NCBI RefSeq assembly: GCF_014132355.1
Contig: NZ_BLZO01000109.1
Span: 91,820-155,819, forward strand
Source of the DNA: Okeania sp. KiyG1
GTDB lineage: Bacteria > Cyanobacteriota > Cyanobacteriia > Cyanobacteriales > Microcoleaceae
Direction of reading: 5' to 3'
Length of the DNA stretch: 64,000 nucleotides
Below the pieces are notes generated by a model. It made no database searches. It was not told the DNA's origin and worked only from the letters and a program-made list of their open reading frames with translations. A program made the position numbers and the translations under genes. Of the stretch, positions 1,811 to 50,192 are shown piece after piece. Position 1 is the first letter of the stretch. Every line of letters starts with the position of its first letter.

Positions 1811-1938
1811 GTAACAGCGATCGCTGTTTTCAGGAGTTTTAAAGTAGGCGATCGCTGTTGTTTTGACTATTCTACAAAAAAAACTAATACTGTCGGCAGC
1901 GAGGAAGCAGGGAACACAATTAATTTTTGTTGATATCT

Positions 1939-1980
1939 CCTTGATAACTGATAACTGATAACTGATAACTGATAACTGAA
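1939..1980. repeat. Short tandem repeat (GATAACT-type decamer)
   Basis: About four tandem copies of CTGATAACTGATAA-type units directly after the NB-ARC gene's 3' end. The same repeat occurs at 11655-11687, 20452-20492, 26982-27015 and 58440-58471, always next to a gene end. These resemble the STRR repeats described in heterocystous and filamentous cyanobacteria. Confidence 0.8.
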
Positions 1981-1982
1981 AC

Positions 1983-4348
1983 CTAACTCTCCATCTGCGA
2001 GATAATCTGCAAACTCTTTTCATCAGATAACTCCCCTTGCCGATTTTCGCTCGCAACTTTCTGTAAAAAATTTTGATAGTTCTGCCGAACTTTCTGAGTA
2101 TTAGGATGCTCTTCTCCTAGTTTTGAAACAAAAATAGTTACAGCTTCCAGATACAGCAGTTCTGCTTCAGCATATCGCCCCAGAGAGTTGTAGAGCTGGG
2201 CTAAGTTATAGAGGCTGGCTGCCATATTTGGATGTGTCGATCCTAGCAGTTGCCTATTAATCTCCAAAGCTTGGAGATAAATCGGTTCAGCTTCACTGTA
2301 TCGTTCTTGAAAGTAGTAGAGAACTGCCAGGTTGTTAAGACTTTGGGCAACATCTGGATGTACAGAACCTAGCAGTTGTTTTCTGATCTCCAATGCTTCG
2401 AGATGTAGAGGCTCGGATTCCCTGTATCGCCCTTGAGAGTCGTAGAGAACTCCTAGGTGGTTGAGACTATCAGCAACATCTGGATGTGCGGAACCTAATA
2501 GTTGCTTTCTCATCTCCAAAGCTTCCAGATACATGGGTTCAGCTTCAGTGTATCGCCCTTGACGCTTGTAGAGAACCCCCAGGTTGCTAAGACTTAGCGC
2601 AACACCTGGATGTGCGGAACCTAACAGTTGCTTTCTCATCTCCAAAGCTTCCAGATGCAGAGGTTCGGACTCAGTGTATCGCCCTTGAAAGTCGTAGAGA
2701 ACCCCCAGGTTACTAAGACTTTGAGCAACATCTTCATGTATAGATCCTAGCAGTTGCTTTCTGATATCCAAAGCTTCCAGATGCAAGGGTTCAGCTTCGT
2801 TGTATCGCCCTTGAGACTCATAGAGCTTTGCCAAATTATTAAGACTTTGGGCAACATATAGATTTGTAGAGCCTAACAGTTGCTTTCTGGTATCTAAAGC
2901 TTTCAGATACAGAGATTCTGCTTGGCTATATCGTCCTTGATACTTGTAGAGGTATGCCAGGTTGTTGAGACTTAGAGCAAAATTTTGGTGTGTAGGCTTC
3001 AGACGTCTTTGAGCAATGTTTACACATTGTTGATACCAAGGTTCGGCTTGGTCATAAAATCCCTGACCTATATAGAATTTACCTAAACCAGCGAAAGGCT
3101 CGATTAGATTATCATCGGTCAACCAGTCCGTCAGGTTGTCCACAACTTCGGCAAGATGGGGAATCGCCGACTCAAACATTAAAATATCCTCGCGAGTAGG
3201 TGTATAGGGAATTTCCTTTGCCTCTGCTACCATCACCCGACAAATACCTTGTTTCATCTCCTCAACCGAGTTCGACTCTGACAACTTCCCTCTAAAAAAT
3301 TCTCGAATCAGTGGATGCAATTCATAACTCCCCTCACCCACCCGTTGCAACAGACTTAAATTCACTAACCCATCATCTCGCCAATCCTCCAAATCTTCCT
3401 CATCCACTTCTAGCAAACACCCTGTCACCAAAGACCAAGGAATAGCTGCCGGAGCAAACAGACTCAACAACCGCCCCAACTCCCGCTTATCTTCATTCAA
3501 CTCTTGCCAACTCAACTCAAAAGCAGTAGCAACCCCCCGCTCCGCAGTCATATCTTGAGAAAATCGTTCTAGAGATTTATGCTCTAACCATTTTGACTTT
3601 AACCGTTGCCTTGCTTTTGCCACAGATAAATCCGGTTTCCGCTCCAAATAACGCGCCACCAACTCCAACCCCAAGGGCAAAAATCCCAGATCGACACACA
3701 ACGCTTTTGCCTCTTCCAGCTCCTGTTGTATCCGAGTCTCCCCAACAAAAGAAACCAACAATTCCAAAGCTGCATCCTCATCCAGCACCTCTAACTCTAA
3801 CCTATGGAAAAATTGCCCCAAGTATTTTTGACGGGTAGTTATCAACACCTTAAACCGAGCTTCCCCAGGAGGTAGAAAATCCGAAATCTCCTGATAATCA
3901 ACCACATCATCAAAAATTACCAGCACATCACCCTGCAACCAGTTACGCCAACAGTAAGCCACTTGAGTCTGCAAGTTATCATCTTTTGAAGGATTTAAGT
4001 TAAATTGCGACTTAGCAAAATTAACAATCTGAATTCCTACATCCACACCACGCCCCTCCAACCAACAAACCCCGCTAGGATAAGTCTTTTGCTGAAGGTG
4101 ATGGTGAGCATATTGGAGAGCAAGTTCAGTTTTACCGATACCACCCATACCAGTAATAGAAGTAATTGCTACTCGTTCGGTTGTTTGTAACTGTTGGTGT
4201 AGGATATCCATTACCTCATCCCGACCAACAAAATTCTTAGCGCCACTCCGGCGACTAAAATTTTCAGGAATGCCTTCTGGCAGTTGGGTACTTTCCTTTG
4301 TCGGTGCCCATCCCGACGACTGCAGTCAAAAGTGATTACCACCTTGAC
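1983..4348 (-). pseudogene. NB-ARC/TPR signalling protein, C-terminal part (split by IS)
   Basis: The longest methionine-initiated frame is 742 residues (from 4211), but NB-ARC-like sequence continues in frame upstream to about 4325 (SGAKNFVGRDEVMDILHQQL, the usual lead-in to the nucleotide-binding domain). Visible motifs are Walker A GMGGIGKT, Walker B DVLVIFDD, the LITTR sensor, FLPLGLELVARYL (GLPL-like) and LHPLIREFF (MHD-like). Eight 42-residue kinesin-light-chain-type TPRs (pattern AEPLHLEALEIRKQLLGS) fill the C-terminus. The missing N-terminus lies at 5719-6136 beyond an inserted tnpB element. One in-frame TGA (4326-4328) remains beside the junction. NB-ARC/TPR proteins act as ATP-dependent switch proteins in regulation or conflict; the input here is unknown. 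Confidence 0.8.
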
Positions 4349-5718
4349 CGAAAAAATGGGTCTCAAGCCTCGCCCATAAGCGGGCGACTTTTTATTGCGG
4401 GTTGATTTTTTTCAATAAATATGTTAACCTATATGTTAGTTTGATGCGTCAAGTTATGAAAGCTAGATTTAAGTACCGTATATATCCAACGCCGGGACAA
4501 AAATACCGATTAGCCAAGCTATTTGGCTGTGTCCGTGTGGCGAGTGAATGATAGTCTAGCTTTCTGCCAACAGAGGTATAGATCAGGAGAAAAGAAATCT
4601 ACTAATTCAGAATTACAAAAGCTTTTTATTACTCAAGCTAAAAAGACTGAAGAAAGAGAATGGTTGTCAGAGGTTTCTAACATACCATTGCAGCAATCAT
4701 TGAATGACTTAAACCAGGCGTTGCTCTAACTTTTTTAAATCAACTCAAGGGAAGAGAAAAGGTAGACCTGTTAGACCTCCTAAATTTAAAAGTAGGAAAT
4801 CAAAGCAAACTGCTAGGTTTAGAAAGGGTGGCTTTAAGATTGGTCAGCATAAAGTTTATTTAGCTAAGATTGGAAAACTAAAAATAGTTTGGTCAAGGGA
4901 GTTACCTGCTGCTCCATCATCAGTAACAGTAATCAAAGATTCCGCCCATAGATATTTCTTGAGTTTTGTAGTAGAAATACAACCAGAAATCTTACCTCAA
5001 ACTGATAATTCAGTAGGCATAGATTTAGGTATTAAAACCTTTGCTACATTGAGCGACGGTACAAAGGTTGATGCTCCTAAGCCACTGAAGAAACGAATTA
5101 AGAAGTATATAAAGTTAAGTAAGTCATTATCTCATAAAACTAAAGGGTCTAAAAGGTATGAAAAAGCCAGGGTTAGAGTGGCTAAATTCCATGCCAAACT
5201 GAAAGATACAAGGACAGATTTTCTACATAAATTATCTACTAAAATAATTCGTGAAAACCAAACAATTGTTTTAGAAGATTTAAACGTTTCTGGAATGGTT
5301 AAAAACCGTAAATTATCCAGAGCAATTTCTGATTTAGCTTGGAGAACGTTCAGGACTTTTTTAGAAGGAAAAGCAGAAAAATATGGTCGCGATTTCAGAG
5401 TAATTAGTCGCCCTTGAGCCAACATCCCAAGTTTGCTCAAATTGTGGCTTTAAAGGTGGGAAGCTAGACCTTCAGGTTCGAGAATGGGAGTGTCTCAACT
5501 GTGGTGCAAAACATGATAGAGACGAGAATGCAGCGATAAATATATTAGTCGCGGGCGGGCAGTCCGAGACATTAAACGGACGTGGAGGTAAGCGTAAGAC
5601 TAGCGTCAAGGTAGCAGCAGCCAGTGTTAGCGGCAGCTATGCGAAGCAAAACGTCAACCCGCCGAGGAGTTACGGCTCGGTAGGAATCCCCGCGCCTTTA
5701 GGCCGGGGAGGATGTCAA
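4349..5718 (+). mobile_element. IS200/IS605-family tnpB element inserted in the NB-ARC gene
   Basis: Left end: CCGAAAAAATGGGTCTCAAGCC followed by a GCCCATAAGCGGGC hairpin. Right end (about 5640-5718): CCGCCGAGGAGTTACGGCTCGG and a CCCCGCGCC/GGCCGGGG stem, ending GGAGGATGTCAA. The same ends occur on the minus strand at 17776-18010, which supports the limits. These elements make no target duplication. Joining bases 5719 and 4348 keeps the host reading frame, consistent with a clean insertion. There is no Y1 transposase (tnpA), so movement would need one in trans. Boundaries may be off by several bases. Confidence 0.75.
4456..5630 (+). pseudogene. tnpB: TnpB (RuvC-like RNA-guided nuclease), frameshifted
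   Basis: The frame opens at ATG 4456 (MKARFKYRIYPTPGQ, the TnpB N-terminus) and then changes near 4540, again near 4724 and again near 5415. The pieces together cover a normal TnpB: catalytic Asp in SVGIDLGIKTFATL, catalytic Glu in IVLEDLNVSGM, the zinc ribbon CSNCGF/CLNCG, and the last Asp in [12 protein letters not shown]. All motifs survive although the frame does not, so decay is recent or some shifts are sequence errors. TnpB cuts DNA guided by RNA from the element's right end and favours element retention. Confidence 0.85.
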
Positions 5719-8053: not shown

Positions 8054-8885
8054 GATGTAGTCGATGAGGATATCGCTATCCCTCACCTCTACTCCAAAAC
8101 CGTACATGAGAGTTTCCATCTCATACGGCTCCTAACATTGCAGGATTCTTCAAGGTTGGTTACACCTATTCTCGCACCTAATATTTCAAGGTTTGTCAAC
8201 GCTTGTTGGCCTCGGTTTTCACTACTCTTTGGCTTGGATACCTGGAGATTTTTCACGGGCATGAGTCTCCTACTCTCGACTTGAGCCTACTTACCCCGGC
8301 GAATGCGTTTTGGCTTAATACAATTTCGGTTTCACGGCTACCTGCAGTGCCTCCCCACGTCTGCATATCCTGAACATTACTCCAGGCTTGCTTCGCAGGA
8401 GTTTCCTTATCCCTAAAAGACATTGGTTAAACTTTTCCTACTCAGAGGTTAAGGTCTGAGAGTCTTAAGGGGTTACTTCGTTCCCTAGTATCATTTCTCG
8501 TTACATTTAGGCTCCTAGTGTCGTCCGACCTCCAACTAGATGTGATAACGCCGAAGAACTACGTTACCAGTTATGTGAGGTTTCCCGTTTTGGGTTTGGT
8601 GTATCAGGCTTAATTTCACCAATCGAAGATGACGAGCGGTTATACTAGATTGACTGTGCGTTAACCTTATGTAACTCCCTTGGCCACGATAACCAGAAAA
8701 AACCTTCTAGTTTTAAGGCTTTAAGTCCATGCACTGAGAGACCAAGTTGTTACCTTGGAATCCTGAACTTCAGAGTCACTCTACATCCCAGAGGGCAGGA
8801 ATTCAACCTGCATGACTACTAGAGTTATCCCTTTTTTGAGACTGGCTAACTTACATAGAAGCTTGTTTAGCCAAACGAATCGCAC
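8054..8885 (-). ncRNA. ORF-less group II intron
   Basis: On the minus strand it opens with the consensus 5' end GTGCGATTCG (first base complement of 8885). It ends with a domain V stem GAGCCGTATGAGATGGAAAC closed by TCTCATGTACGGTTTTG (about 8096-8131) and a domain VI stem GTAGAGGTGAGGGATAGCG closed by ATATCCTCATCGACTAC. The second intron at 47761-48639 has the same layout. There is no reverse transcriptase/maturase frame in its 832 bp, so splicing or mobility would need help in trans. It lies between genes, in a TTCTTCC-rich repeat, not inside a coding sequence. The 3' end is inferred by alignment to the other copy. Confidence 0.85.
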
Positions 8886-28951: not shown

Positions 28952-30301
28952 TTACTGTAGTTTATCAAGGTAATCACAAGAATACTTGTTCTTGTGCAAA
29001 TTAGTGACATACTCCCACACTAAGCAGGCGCTATAGTGTGGGCTTCTCGTTTCGCAGCCCCGGTATCCCGTCGGGCAAGCGCGTGCTTTAAGGACGGAAT
29101 GCCCTGCCGCCCTATTTTTGATATTGATCGCCGCGTTCAAATCGCGGTCTATTACAATACCGCAATGTGGGCAACAATGAGTTCGCATGTTTAATTCTTT
29201 ATCGACTTTTTCACCACAATTTGAGCAATCTTGGCTAGTATTTTTGGGGTTTACTGCTATAGTCTTCTGTCCAGCATTTGCCTCCTGCGGAGGAGCTGCG
29301 CTAACAGCTTTGACATTTAAAATAGACAGGAATTGTCCCCATCCAGCATCGTTAATTGATTTACTCAAACGAGTCTTTGTTAGCCCTTTAATGTTTAAGT
29401 TTGCCTCCGGCACGCCGCGCTCCGCGTCTACATGGGCGATAACTTCTGCTTTTGATAACAATTCATTGGCTGTTTTGAAATGAAAATCTTTACGTTTATC
29501 GGCAACCTTTTTATGTTGTTTAGCTACAGCTAGAAGAGCTTTGAGCCACCTTTTACTTCCTTTTTTCTTTCGAGATAAACGTTTCTGTAGAATCTTTAAT
29601 CGCTGCTGAGAAGAGCGATAGTATTGAGGGATGGGAACAGATTCTCCTTCACTTGTTACTAAGAATTCCTTCAGTCCCATATCAATTCCCAGAGTGTTTT
29701 TTAATGTAGGTTCAACTTCACAACTCAAAGCTGGAACTGATTTTTCTTCTAGGGATAAAGTCAGATAATAACCATCTGCTTTACGACTAATCGTCACAGT
29801 TTAAGAGTGAAAACCATCAGGTAACGGCCGATGTTGAATCAACTTTATCTTGCCTATTTTGGGCAAGTTGATCTTGTTTTCTTGAATGCAGTCTTGCTTG
29901 ATTTGAGGATAAGTAAAACTGCGGTAACGCCCTTTTCCCTTAAACCTTGGTTTCCCTAATTTATGTCCATTTTTGTCTGCCTTAAACCATCTATCAAAGG
30001 CAAGTTTTACCCGTTTTATGCAATCCTGTAAAACCTGAGAATGTATCAACTTGTACTCAGGAAACTTGTCTTTGGTATTGACCAAATCTTTTTTTTGAGA
30101 GTAATAATCTGGATTATCTCTGAGTTGAGGAATTGGCACCACCAAGGGACAAGCGTTAACCGGACAGCGATTTTCTGACCACCATGAGAACCGCTCGCCT
30201 AACCGATAGTTGTACTGCCGACGCAACAATTCCAACCACATTTCTATGATGGCTATTTGTTCTTTGTTGGGCCTTAATTTATATTGGTAGCCAGTGCGCA
30301 T
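28952..30301 (-). pseudogene. tnpB: TnpB with one in-frame stop
   Basis: A 449-codon frame from 30301 (MRTGYQYKLRPNKEQIAIIE) to 28952, broken only by TAA at about 29804 after PLPDGFHS; the next residues [17 protein letters not shown] continue in the same frame. RuvC-like Asp lies in [11 protein letters not shown], the zinc ribbon in [14 protein letters not shown], and the last Asp in [12 protein letters not shown]. Two extra in-frame segments (in [19 protein letters not shown] and [15 protein letters not shown]) come from short palindromic DNA insertions sharing GGAGGCAAA; the first lies where the EDLN catalytic Glu is normally found. The protein is probably inactive even if the stop is read through. 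Confidence 0.85.
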
Positions 30302-33514: not shown

Positions 33515-34732
33515 CTAGTCAAACGCAAGTGGATCAACCACTACAGGGTTAAACGGCAAACCCTTTATTCCTTGGTCCAAGACATCAGGAATTACTTTTC
33601 TAATTATATTAAATGACCCATTTACATCTGCATTTAATAATTTATTTTCCCTGGTTTTATACAATCCCCTCGTTACTCTTTTTCCACTAAATTTCGGTTT
33701 TTTATCTCCATATTTTGGTAAATTATCCCCATCTAAGCAGCTTGATTGAGATGTATAGGATTCTTCTGTAATTATTACTTTTATTCCTCTTAGTTGGGCT
33801 TTATATGTTAACATCTCTATTAACCTATAGTGAGGGATGTTCACAAATTGTTGATTGTTCTTTTTACCTAATTTTATCTCTTGTTTCCAAGTCTGATTAT
33901 GCCCAATAATTAAGGTTCCTATTTCATGGTTTACACACCAGTCTATTACTCTTTTACTTGCTGTATGGAGATAGTTTTCTACTCGACAATTTCTTTTGTG
34001 AGTTAATTTTTTTAACCGATGAGAATTACTTTGATTGTGGCTATTTAATTGAGATTGTAAACAAGAGCGCTGTTTATTATAAAAGGTGTTAATTGCTTTT
34101 AATGGTCTGCCTTTAATCAAAATAGGTGATATTCCTGTTTGATTTGTCGTTACAGCTATTAAGTTATTTACTCCTAAATCTATTCCTGCTATTTGTTGAT
34201 TATTTGTTATTTCCTCCTGTTTTTCATAGACTATTTCTATTAGATAACAGCTACTTTTTGGGACGATTCTTGCTTCTATTATTTCTGTCTGTGAAGTGGG
34301 GATTTTTATTTCACTCATAGACAGGTGACAAATTCCTTTTTTTAAGGCTTTTTTATAAATTGATTCATCTGGATAGGGCAGAATATTTCGGCCTTTTGTC
34401 TTATGTTTATATTTGGGGATTTTTGGTTTCCCTAAAAATTTATTTGGCTGTTTTTGCCAGGCTTTTAAGGCTGCAAAATAACTACTCCAAGCTGAGTCTA
34501 ATATCAATGATTATTTGCTTACTTACTTTTGTAGGTAAAGCTTGATAATCTTCACTTTTAGATACCTGGTGATACAGTTGATTAAAGCTTAGTTTCTTTT
34601 TGTTTTCAAAGAAATGTTGGCGATAATAATAGTTAGCTAAATTGAATAAATTTTTCGACAAAAAGCCTTGTGGTCTATTTCTGACCACAAATAATGTGAT
34701 TTGGTAATAACATGACGTTCAACTAGCTTCAT
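33515..34732 (-). pseudogene. tnpB: TnpB-like transposon protein, frameshifted
   Basis: The N-terminus begins at ATG 34732 (MKLVERHVITKSHYLWSEID), shifts near 34670 into LSKNLFNLANYYYRQ, and again near 34500 into the long frame that starts LDSAWSSYFAALKAWQKQP. The catalytic Asp is in IAGIDLGVNNLIAVT. GTLIIGHNQTWKQEI stands where VIEDLN is usual, so the Glu appears replaced. A cysteine in QSSCLDGDNLPKYG and the final Asp in LLNADVNGSFNI follow. This is the IS1341-like subgroup in which the Glu position often differs and the zinc ribbon is reduced. Probably inactive. Confidence 0.8.
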
Positions 34733-47000: not shown

Positions 47001-47390
47001 GAATTGGTAAGAATAAGCTTGATGTAATTTAATTGCTCTATTGGCGACATTCTCTAACTGATTCCAACGCTGCAAATATTGTAAAACCACTCCCCAAGCA
47101 TTGATAAACTTGGCAACCAAGTCAGGGGGCTTAACTTTCTCAAAGGTTTCTACCGACTGCTGAAGATAGGAACAAGCGAGATTGTAAGATTTTTCTTGTT
47201 CAGCTCGATGCCAAACTCCATAACTGCGCCACCACGAGCCTAGATAATAATGAATGTGAGCAACTCGCACAGCCTGATTCAGTTGTTGCCAAAGTTCGAG
47301 ACTGCGTTGATCATGCTCTAGTGGTTTTTTTGTAGAATTATCTGCTGCTGCTTCATAAAACTGATATAAAACGTCATAATTAGTGACATT
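44058..47390 (-). pseudogene. Decayed second copy of the TPR-STAND-WD40-TPR protein
   Basis: The order of parts matches the intact protein at 50695-56196. TPR-like helices (47390-46640) begin at ADNSTKKPLEH, equal to about residue 205 of the intact copy. After a one-base gain in an A-run near 46660 come the STAND ATPase (Walker A YGQSGVGKSS, Walker B TVIIFDQFEEFF), the basic stretch and membrane helix VSVGAALGMAVLAGGMTIF, and only three WD40 repeats. A deletion and frameshift near 44733 join the third repeat to the C-terminal TPR part (TKLAREGKTEEAVEKYQRAK...NPFTDEVLEKL). The N-terminal 200 residues were lost where the tnpB element lies. Confidence 0.85.
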
Positions 47391-47433
47391 TTAATGTTTA
47401 CTTCCTGCTTCTACTGAGGCCGTCGGCGGTTAC

Positions 47434-49395
47434 TCATCCACAGGCATTGACGGTCAAGCCGACCGCATTTCTTAAATTTATACTTGCATTCAAATCACGG
47501 TCTATAGATATTCCACATTCAGGGCAGTCATAAGTTCTCAGGCTTAATGACATATCTTGGACGTGACCACAGTTAGAACAAGTCTTAGAAGATGGAAAAA
47601 ACCTGTCTACTACCACTAACTCAGAACCGTACCATTGGCACTTGTACTCAAGCTGTCTGCGAAATTCATAAAACCCTTGGTCTGCAATTGACTTAGCTAG
47701 CTTATGGTTAGCTAACATTCCACTCACATTCAAATCCTCAATCACAACAGTGCCGTGGTTGTTATAGTCGATGTGGCGTATTACCGCCCGCACCTCTACT
47801 TCAAAACCCTGCGTGCGACTTTCACCGCACAAGGCTCCTAGCAGTCTATGGCAACGTATCATGTGAGATACAAAATCCTTTGATTAAGACTAAACTTGGT
47901 CAGAGTCCAGTGATTCCTAATCTTCCACTATTGTTTTCAAGGAGTGTCTAATCCTACCGCCTTGGAGCTTCTGCTTCCGGGTCGCTTTGCATTCGACTAA
48001 CGAGCAAGGCAATTACAGGTTAAAAGCTTCTGCCCTGTACGCATAGTTTCAGCGAGCTTCACTCTAGGTGTCTAAGCATCATCACCTATCCAACTACCGT
48101 TTCTCGACTGCCGGGGGCAATTCTGTTCCCCCATCCTACCCGTCAAGTGAGAATTCCGAGCTTCCCTCCTACTAACTAAATAACCTATTTTAGTCAGACT
48201 CACTTGCCGTTTTTCCTCGTTCCGAGTTACAGATTATTTTGACGGTTTAGGGCTGTCCAATTCGCCTACACGATTCCCAGGGATGCGTCTAATGCCAAAA
48301 TATTACGCGGGATTTCCTCGTGTGCGGTCAAGAGATAAGAGGTGGTTCTTGCCGTACTTTGAGGCGCTTTTTCAGGACATTCCGCCCCGGTACCCATGCC
48401 GTCTCCCCATTACCCCCAGTGTGCCTACCACTATACGCTCTGGTTGGGGCCTGTTGCCAGCTTCACTCTGCTAGTGGAAAGGTCTAGCTCGGTGTGGCCA
48501 GGTCGGGAGTCTGCCTTCCCTTGGCAGGTGGGACTTTCACCCACATCCGTGACTCAGTTATTCATTGAGCTTAATTGCTCTTTGAACCCTGTTCATACCC
48601 CTCTAGTTTCTAGAGGCTCCTAACAGGAACGAGTCGCACTTTGGCTAAGTATGTTGTCAACTTATCAAGTGCATCTTTACGGATATTAGCTACTTGTCTA
48701 TGCTGCTTTGCCAACTTAATTACAACTTTGTACCAATTGTTTGAATGCTTAACTTTCCTACTCAGTTGTCGTTGTAACTTAGCTAGTCTGTTTTGGGCTT
48801 GACGGTAAGGCTTCACACTCTTGAATATTTCACCAGTACTTAGTGTTGCTAGTGTCTTAATTCCTAAATCTACACCTACAACTTCTGTAGTTTTTGAAGT
48901 TGCAGTCGGAGTAAATTCATAACTACAGCTTAAGTACCAATCCGAAGCTTGTCTGCTAATAGTTATTTTTTGAGTTGTAGCTTCAATTGGTTCATAAGTT
49001 TTGACCATACCAATAAAAGGTAATTTATGATTCCATCCATTTAATTCTATTGGTTTTCCACAATTATCTATTGTGAATGAATCAGACCTACCTTTCTTCT
49101 TAAATCTTGGATATTTACCTAATCCTTTAAAGAACCTTTTAAACGCTTCAGATAAGTTGATGAAAGCATATTGATAAACTTTAGACGACAAGTTTTTCAT
49201 CCAGGGATAAAGAGGTTTTGTGTGATTGGTAAACACATCTCTAAGCTTACGAGCATTTGGCTTGAAACCATCCTTGTAAGCAGCATTCCACAAACTTAAA
49301 CCCCAGTTATAGCACCATCGAGAGTAGCCAGCGTGTTGAGCCATCAGAGTTTTCTGCTTATTATTTAATTTGAGTTTGGTTCTAATGGATTTCAT
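47434..49395 (-). CDS. tnpB: TnpB interrupted by a group II intron; intact if spliced
   Basis: Exon 1 is 756 bp (49395 to 48640, 252 codons) and exon 2 is 327 bp (47760 to 47434, 108 codons plus stop). Joined at LTTYLAK/NHGTVVIED they give a 360-residue TnpB with no frame break. All functional parts are visible: N-terminal IRTKLKLNNKQKTLMAQ, catalytic Asp in VVGVDLGIKTLATLS, catalytic Glu in VVIEDLNVSGM, zinc ribbon CSNCGHV/CPECG and last Asp in SIDRDLNASINL. This is the only tnpB here with a fully open frame, although it needs splicing. No group II maturase is in the window. Confidence 0.9.
47761..48639 (-). ncRNA. ORF-less group II intron inside tnpB
   Basis: 879 bp. The minus strand starts GTGCGACTCGTTCC (consensus GUGYG). 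The 3' part has domain V, GGAGCCTTGTGCGGTGAAAG closed by TCGCACGCAGGGTTTTG, and domain VI, GTAGAGGTGCGGGCGG closed by TACGCCACATCGACTATAAC, with an unpaired A 8 bases from the end and a final AC. Both boundaries are set by exact restoration of the tnpB frame. There is no reverse transcriptase frame; domain IV is a short non-coding arm. It resembles the intron at 8054-8885 in both ends but not in target. Confidence 0.92.
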
Positions 49396-49463
49396 GTACG
49401 GGTTAGCGCAGCCTGTCTAAAAGTATGCTTATTAACCTATTATATCGTTATTATTTGATTAAG

Positions 49464-50192
49464 TCAATGCTCCCCTCGATCTACAAATAGATATTCTGGT
49501 TGAGTTTTGTTCTGATATTTAAGAGTATTATCAACCTTATCAAGGTTATCAACAATGACGACTAATCCATTTTTGTCATACTGTTTCAGCTTTTCGTTAG
49601 CAGGTTCAAACAATTCTTGGTTAATAGTTTCAATAATGCCACTGGTGCGGGGTCCGAGATATTCTCTGAGTTTACTACGAACTTCAGGGCTAGCTTTGGC
49701 CTCGGTAGTTATTTTGCCAATTCCAAAAGAGAGTTCAATCTTAGATATTTCAATTTCTGTCTGCAATAATTTGGCAGCTCCCTGGAGTATACCTTTCAGT
49801 CTGTTGGGTTCATTTATCTTAAAATTTTTCAAGTCCTCTAAACTTTCACTGACTTGTTGGACAATAGTTAGAAGGATATCACCTACATCTACATCTCCCA
49901 TTTCTAGGTTTTTGTCAGACTCAACGTAGACAACATGAAAGCCTTCTATTTCCAACTGTTGCTTGAGCCGCCACAATTCTGTAGATTTACCACAACCAAT
50001 ATGTCCAGTAAATAGTTGACAAGTAGGTCGGCCTGAAGACCAGAGAATGGTCTTTTGTAATTTCTTAATAACTTGTCCTCCACGCACAGTCGAGAAGTCA
50101 ATATAGTATCTATTGTCAATTTCTGCATTGTCTATAAACAGAGGAATGCCAGGGTCTGTTGCCTGAAAAAAAGCTTTGGGATCTAAAGGCAT
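49464..50192 (-). pseudogene. Truncated AAA-type ATPase (second copy of module)
   Basis: 242 residues from ATG 50192, about 75-80% identical by eye to the N-terminal half of the intact ATPase at 57011-58441. It keeps Walker A FTGHIGCGKSTEL and Walker B LVVIVDNLDKV, then stops just after YLFVDRGEH, where the intact protein continues DRGEQLMSLHCHL. The break coincides with the edge of the tnpB element. It lacks the 38-residue Gly-rich insert (IPGVGKV/LPGVGQV) of the other copy. Without sensor and winged-helix parts it should not be a working ATPase. Confidence 0.85.

Follow-up and report, generated by a model that had tools for sequence, protein, structure and literature searches.

An ORF-less group IIB-like intron at one codon boundary in five diverged tnpB genes of an Okeania genome

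A tnpB gene in the analysed window (the whole stretch of 64,000 nucleotides) is split by a group II intron, and the same intron is found at the same codon boundary in four further tnpB genes of this genome. We consider it very probable that this is a mobile, ORF-less group IIB-like intron which is mobilised in trans and retrohomes into tnpB copies. The split gene and its intron have the following features.

47340 to 49470, minus strand: approximate extent of the tnpB-only IS around the intron, from the limits of similarity among the five copies, set by eye
48640 to 49395, minus strand: tnpB exon 1, 756 bp, 252 aa, ATG start, ending in ...LTTYLAK; HTH_OrfB_IS605 and OrfB_IS605 domains
48647 to 48651, minus strand: IBS2, TACTT, just upstream of IBS1
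48640 to 48645, minus strand: IBS1, GCCAAA, the final six bases of exon 1
47761 to 48639, minus strand: ORF-less group II intron, 879 bp, from 5' GTGCG to 3' AC
48355 to 48359 (intron positions 281-285), minus strand: EBS2, AAGTA, 5 of 5 pairs with IBS2
48294 to 48299 (intron positions 341-346), minus strand: EBS1, TTTGGC, pairing with all six bases of IBS1; in a hairpin loop as judged by eye
47761 to 47839, minus strand: domains V and VI (Rfam: RF00029), 51.3 bits with a gathering score of 40; the match stops at the 3' end that was predicted
47768, minus strand: the A that is probably the branch point, at a distance of 8 nt from the 3' splice site, placed from the Rfam alignment with a position rule that we take as given
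47434 to 47760, minus strand: tnpB exon 2, 327 bp including the stop codon, 108 aa, starting with NHGTVVIEDL; Cas12f1-like_TNB domain

Each exon is recognisable as part of a TnpB by itself. Exon 1 alone matches positions 1-283 of the NCBIfam family guided_TnpB with 170.7 bits and exon 2 alone matches positions 287-388 with 131.7 bits (cut-off 100 in both cases). When the exons were compared separately with an uninterrupted TnpB of the same genome (L094, contig C85), exon 1 corresponded to residues 1-267 and exon 2 to residues 268-387. The two matches adjoin, so no residue is lost or doubled at the junction. The junction is fixed by this homologue together with the empty sites described below, and the intron that is bounded there runs from GTGCG to AC, in agreement with the ends of group II introns, which are 5' GUGYG and 3' AY. 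By profile match the two-exon gene is a TnpB gene of the IS200/IS605 or IS607 type with putative nuclease activity.

These results bear out the first-pass annotation of this DNA, which had placed a group II intron inside tnpB at the same coordinates; the exon frames, the RF00029 match and L094 all agree with it. It had further claimed that exons of 756 and 327 bp join in frame at LTTYLAK/NHGTVV, and both L094 and the guided_TnpB alignments support this. Of the checks that had been proposed, the covariance model puts the 3' end at the predicted position 47761 with the frame kept, and the search for intron-lacking tnpB genes with the predicted junction returned 15 empty sites in the same genome. 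The statement that all RuvC and zinc-ribbon residues are present is consistent with the exon translations as read, where the residues looked for are those which we take to be catalytic.

No ORF listed as lying entirely within 47761-48639 is longer than 75 aa, and the Rfam scan of the window found none of the group I intron families at threshold. On its sequence and its domain V/VI match, the intron is an ORF-less, bacterial, group IIB-like intron which would be able to splice, with the IIB label partly our assumption. A second group II domain V/VI is located at 8055-8133 of the window on the minus strand; it has another 3' end, belongs to a separate intron and has an equal-scoring copy on contig C127.

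Searching the window with 13 TnpB queries returned four tnpB-like loci. The claim that the split gene is the only tnpB in the window without a stop or frameshift is nearly right: the locus at 4447-5697 is fragmented and the locus at 28952-30301 has an in-frame stop, but the locus at 33515-34507 has an open frame of 330 aa. The latter matches residues 195-516 of the 525-residue stop-to-stop frame L023 (contig C166 of this genome). L023 is itself chimeric, as a C-terminal piece of TnpB runs on in frame into the greater part of a second TnpB, and therefore a missing N-terminus of the locus at 33515-34507 cannot be inferred from that match.

The 11-Mb genome has five copies of the intron. Of these, four, including the one in the window, are identical over all 879 bases, and the fifth lacks one base and has 878. 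All five are located in tnpB genes and share one codon boundary. Among the five host genes, the pairwise identity (10 pairs) is 77.1-90.3% in exon 1 and 79.5-86.8% in exon 2, and the outer flanks beyond the IS have no evident similarity. Close to the intron the exons are invariant from -14 to -2 and from +1 to +10, with differences starting at -15 and +11; base -1 is A in four copies and G in one. Near-identical introns in exons which differ by 10-23%, with unlike flanks, indicate that the intron spread among existing tnpB genes independently of the IS. On these comparisons, the contrast in identity is the pattern of a retroelement that would have inserted recently into already diverged targets.

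In two of the five host genes, the window copy and the one on C171, both exons are fully open, and splicing of these copies would yield full-length TnpB. The other three are broken, with an insertion and a frameshift in exon 1 (C142), a stop in exon 2 (C31) and a frameshift near the end (C60), so the presence of the intron does not require that TnpB is restored. The three broken hosts, and the lack of a reverse-transcriptase gene inside the intron, would also be expected if the intron had spread in the past, had since lost splicing and now just breaks tnpB, which is compatible with past retrohoming. We regard this loss of splicing as unlikely, as five near-identical copies point to recent activity, domains V and VI as well as EBS1 and EBS2 are intact, and two copies have exons without any break in the frame.

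The choice of the insertion site can be followed in the pairing between the intron and its exon. We compared EBS1 with the own IBS1 of 17 related introns from this and other genomes, of which 14 are distinct (three pairs are the same DNA). All 17 introns (14 distinct) pair in 6 of 6 positions; EBS1 was located by an automatic rule in 13 of them; for the remaining four, a region of 90 bases was scanned less strictly, and one of these four has a G-U pair. When EBS1 and IBS1 of the 13 introns were swapped, six pairs were reached in only 7 of 152 combinations. For EBS2 the best pairing in the window searched gave 4-5 of 5 pairs in all 17 introns, a count taken without a swapped control, and was at the same place in 15 introns; in L083 and L086 the best pairing was elsewhere.

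Using a 23-base pattern of the two exon ends and allowing up to three mismatches, we found 15 empty target sites in this genome, of which one matches perfectly, and none with the reversed control. The LAK/NH reading at these sites is largely built into the pattern. The 20 codons on either side read as TnpB in 13 of the 15 sites, while L097 and L105 have a stop or unrelated sequence downstream. Furthermore, the genome has 15 occurrences of TACTTAGCCAAR, the combined IBS2 and IBS1 string, and 0 of its control: five of the occurrences are the occupied sites, six are empty sites in tnpB (C94, C98, C108, C110, C146 and C174) and four are elsewhere, one of the latter directly preceding another tnpB-like gene.

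The first-pass annotation had suggested that the intron could spread with the IS. The intron does lie within an IS, and its five copies are all in tnpB, as would be the case if intron and IS moved as one composite, IStron-like unit with a group II intron. Such a unit predicts exons and introns of equal similarity, but exon identity is 77-90% against complete or near-complete identity of the intron, the flanks are dissimilar, and there are 15 related tnpB sites without the intron. The suggestion is thus contradicted, and a composite origin is very unlikely; we rejected joint transposition of IS and intron on the grounds that exon identity is far below intron identity.

Another process which could place the intron at the same site in paralogous genes is gene conversion between tnpB copies, and recombination is possible among multi-copy genes. 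The exon tract common to the five copies is short (-14 to -2 and +1 to +10), which RNA-guided insertion fits better, and the EBS/IBS pairing accounts for the site. Spread by gene conversion and not by retrohoming is therefore highly improbable to us.

For the favoured reading, retrohoming in trans, we propose the following steps. EBS1 and EBS2 together would recognise a target of 11-12 bases (TACTTAGCCAA[A/G]), which is situated in one tnpB subfamily in the codons before what we take to be the second RuvC motif. Empty tnpB copies would then be entered by reverse splicing of the intron RNA, probably in complex with a reverse transcriptase/maturase that an ORF-containing relative encodes, such as the 522-aa protein of C154. 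As a multi-copy mobile gene, with at least 150 matches, tnpB may keep supplying new targets that are for the most part dispensable. This number refers to matches to the TnpB C-terminal domain in the 11-Mb genome, with 150 of 537 candidates scored.

Candidates for the helper are present in the same genome. ORF-containing relatives of the intron are 76-81% identical to it over the first part of the RNA, and the introns which carry the candidate helper are approximately 77-83% identical to the ORF-less intron in the aligned parts. The relative on C154 encodes an open protein of 522 aa with RVT_1 and group II maturase (GIIM) domains. By analogy with the work on Thermosynechococcus, a reverse transcriptase/maturase of the C154 type probably serves the ORF-less intron in trans. 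Another relative with a reverse transcriptase, L088 (contig C116, 6665-4470, minus strand), is located inside an iscB gene and has its reverse-transcriptase frame split into two ORFs. The upstream part of this host gene matches the NCBIfam family guided_IscB with 280 bits (cut-off 175); the downstream part is IscB-like by eye and matched no NCBIfam family. The host gene of one more such relative resembles, by eye, a protein kinase with a sulfatase-modifying-type domain.

In the whole genome there are at least 43 matches to group II domain V, 39 of them above the cut-off (150 of 531 candidates scored). Searching the 3' flanks, with C121 at a contig end left out, we found TnpB-like sequence just downstream of seven of these at least 43 matches. 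Five are the intron described here and two are other introns in broken insertions, on C187 and C84. In the latter two (L155 and L150), tnpB is broken at other sites by the remains of other group II introns, and the domain V on C84 scores below the cut-off.

Relatives of the intron are also present outside this genome, as 37 of the 62 genomes of the family (own genome included) match it to some extent. When 29 loci with intron relatives (L106-L134) were searched with the 13 TnpB queries, there were matches in three, namely those of G044 and G004 described below and L134, which has its TnpB piece at the distant end. No TnpB match to the 13 queries was found for the 78% identical relative in G058. 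A 77% identical ORF-less intron of a genome of the same genus (L264, G044:C257, minus strand) lies inside an IS5-family transposase gene, with DUF4096 upstream, DDE_Tnp_1 downstream and a frameshift soon after the junction; a TnpB piece is located further downstream. In a genome of another genus, an 85% identical ORF-less intron (L263, G004:C51) has as its 5' flank a broken tnpB that belongs to a different subfamily and is interrupted at the NADINGSL motif, and as its 3' flank an FGE-sulfatase-type gene. These two flanks do not belong together and the locus is chimeric, through exon shuffling or recombination between introns, or through misassembly. In both the IS5 and the chimeric locus, EBS1 matches the own exon.

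We also searched for the junctions themselves. The exact 5' junction pattern had 0 matches in the genome contig collection, from which near genomes may be left out. Across the 389 genomes of the order, a looser 5' pattern found the five own copies and one site in G378 that has no TnpB similarity, and the 3' pattern found the five own copies only, with a few control matches; junction patterns of this kind would miss diverged cases. At this resolution, the targeting of the exact tnpB site seems to be confined to this species. Residence in IS genes is nevertheless a recurring property of the intron lineage, as the relative in the IS5-family transposase gene indicates that the targeting of IS genes recurs.

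Relatives of the reverse transcriptase are encoded at 127 loci; among the 80 best of these, many of them cut by contig ends, one (L184 in Tolypothrix campylonemoides VB511288) has tnpB pieces on both sides. There an IEP-bearing group II intron (approximately 1938-5571) splits a distant tnpB approximately 15 codons upstream of the present site. With approximately 2 kb, the part of this intron that precedes the IEP is of unusual length.

The contigs C152, C153 and C154 (L085, L084 and L083) have a near-identical 5' stretch in the parts compared, and their sequences part precisely where the same group II intron has its 3' end. This is probably assembly behaviour at a repeat and possibly recombination. 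Together with the mismatched flanks of the G004 locus, it hints at misjoins or recombination at introns, and the exact 100% identity of intron copies could partly be assembly smoothing. That the five copies are a single repeat sequence placed several times by the assembler is, in spite of this divergence at an intron end, extremely unlikely, as each of the five introns has tnpB in register on both sides and lies on a contig of 41-156 kb, and a difference of one base sets one copy apart.

Retrohoming into tnpB would leave a natural record of an intron aimed at one tnpB codon boundary, with five occupied sites alongside 15 empty ones in a single genome. The case offers a test of whether splicing restores TnpB, and of whether the production of guide RNA and nuclease uncouple. 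Presumably, the guide RNA lies in exon 2 and the sequence that follows it. A more far-reaching idea is that the intron lineage favours RNA-guided nuclease genes as a niche, with splicing selecting between nuclease mRNA and guide RNA only, and with cuts by TnpB perhaps opening the empty sites. If so, exon 2 and the downstream sequence, and with them the presumed guide RNA, would be made without splicing, and TnpB would not. The five tnpB copies at one site, the relative in iscB and the relative of another species with a different tnpB 5' flank at the last RuvC motif point in this direction. The relative in the IS5-family transposase gene counts against a niche of nuclease genes only, and we consider the idea improbable.

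In the open-access literature searched, we found no description of a group II intron in tnpB. The closest known system is that of the ORF-less IIB1 introns of Thermosynechococcus elongatus, and the present case is the same kind of behaviour, going by the part of Mohr et al. 2010 (PMC2882425) that is drawn on here. According to that part, three of these introns share a conserved site in the IS200-family element ISEL1, helper proteins move ORF-less introns in mobility assays, and recent independent insertion is read from inner introns that are identical although the outer introns around them have diverged. Like the F4 introns (CL/IIB1) of T. elongatus described there, the present intron is cyanobacterial and ORF-less, and occurs in several copies at one conserved IS200-family site. 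Good EBS/IBS pairing and the use of mobile elements as renewable targets are also common to both, as is a trans helper, which is reported for T. elongatus and is a candidate here. In keeping with a trans-mobilised type, our intron contains no IEP gene and an IEP-bearing relative is present in the same genome.

Differences to the F4 introns, as far as the same source describes them, concern the target and the kind of evidence. The F4 site is given there as conserved in ISEL1, whereas here five diverged tnpB paralogues are occupied at an exact codon boundary; and the F4 introns are of subclass IIB1 and the source reports mobility assays with ORF-less introns, whereas the present IIB-like intron is known from sequence. 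The idea from 2010 that introns proliferate via other mobile elements would thus apply also to a coding sequence, that of an RNA-guided nuclease. New in the present case are this protein-coding target, the exact codon boundary, and occupied and empty sites side by side. The F3 twintrons of T. elongatus (PMC2882425, same part) are likewise identical inner introns in diverged hosts, although they are hosted by another group II intron and the present one by a tnpB gene.

The second comparison is with IStrons, which the accounts drawn on describe as an IS associated with a group I intron, where splicing renders the IS insertions harmless (PMC4227781; PMC3073962). In both cases, to go by the first of these accounts, an RNA of a self-splicing type is physically tied to an IS200/IS605-type element (PMC4227781). 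Our intron belongs to group II, and the tnpB exons lie outside it on both sides. An IStron, as described there, is fused with its IS as one unit, while the present intron is nested in tnpB and would move without the IS. The analogy with IStrons drawn in the first-pass annotation is thus inverted: in an IStron, splicing of the intron keeps the IS insertion from doing harm, and here the IS holds an intron in its own nuclease gene. The L184 locus of T. campylonemoides, finally, is also a tnpB split by a group II intron, and differs from the present gene in the site, in the TnpB and in the reverse transcriptase which its intron carries itself.
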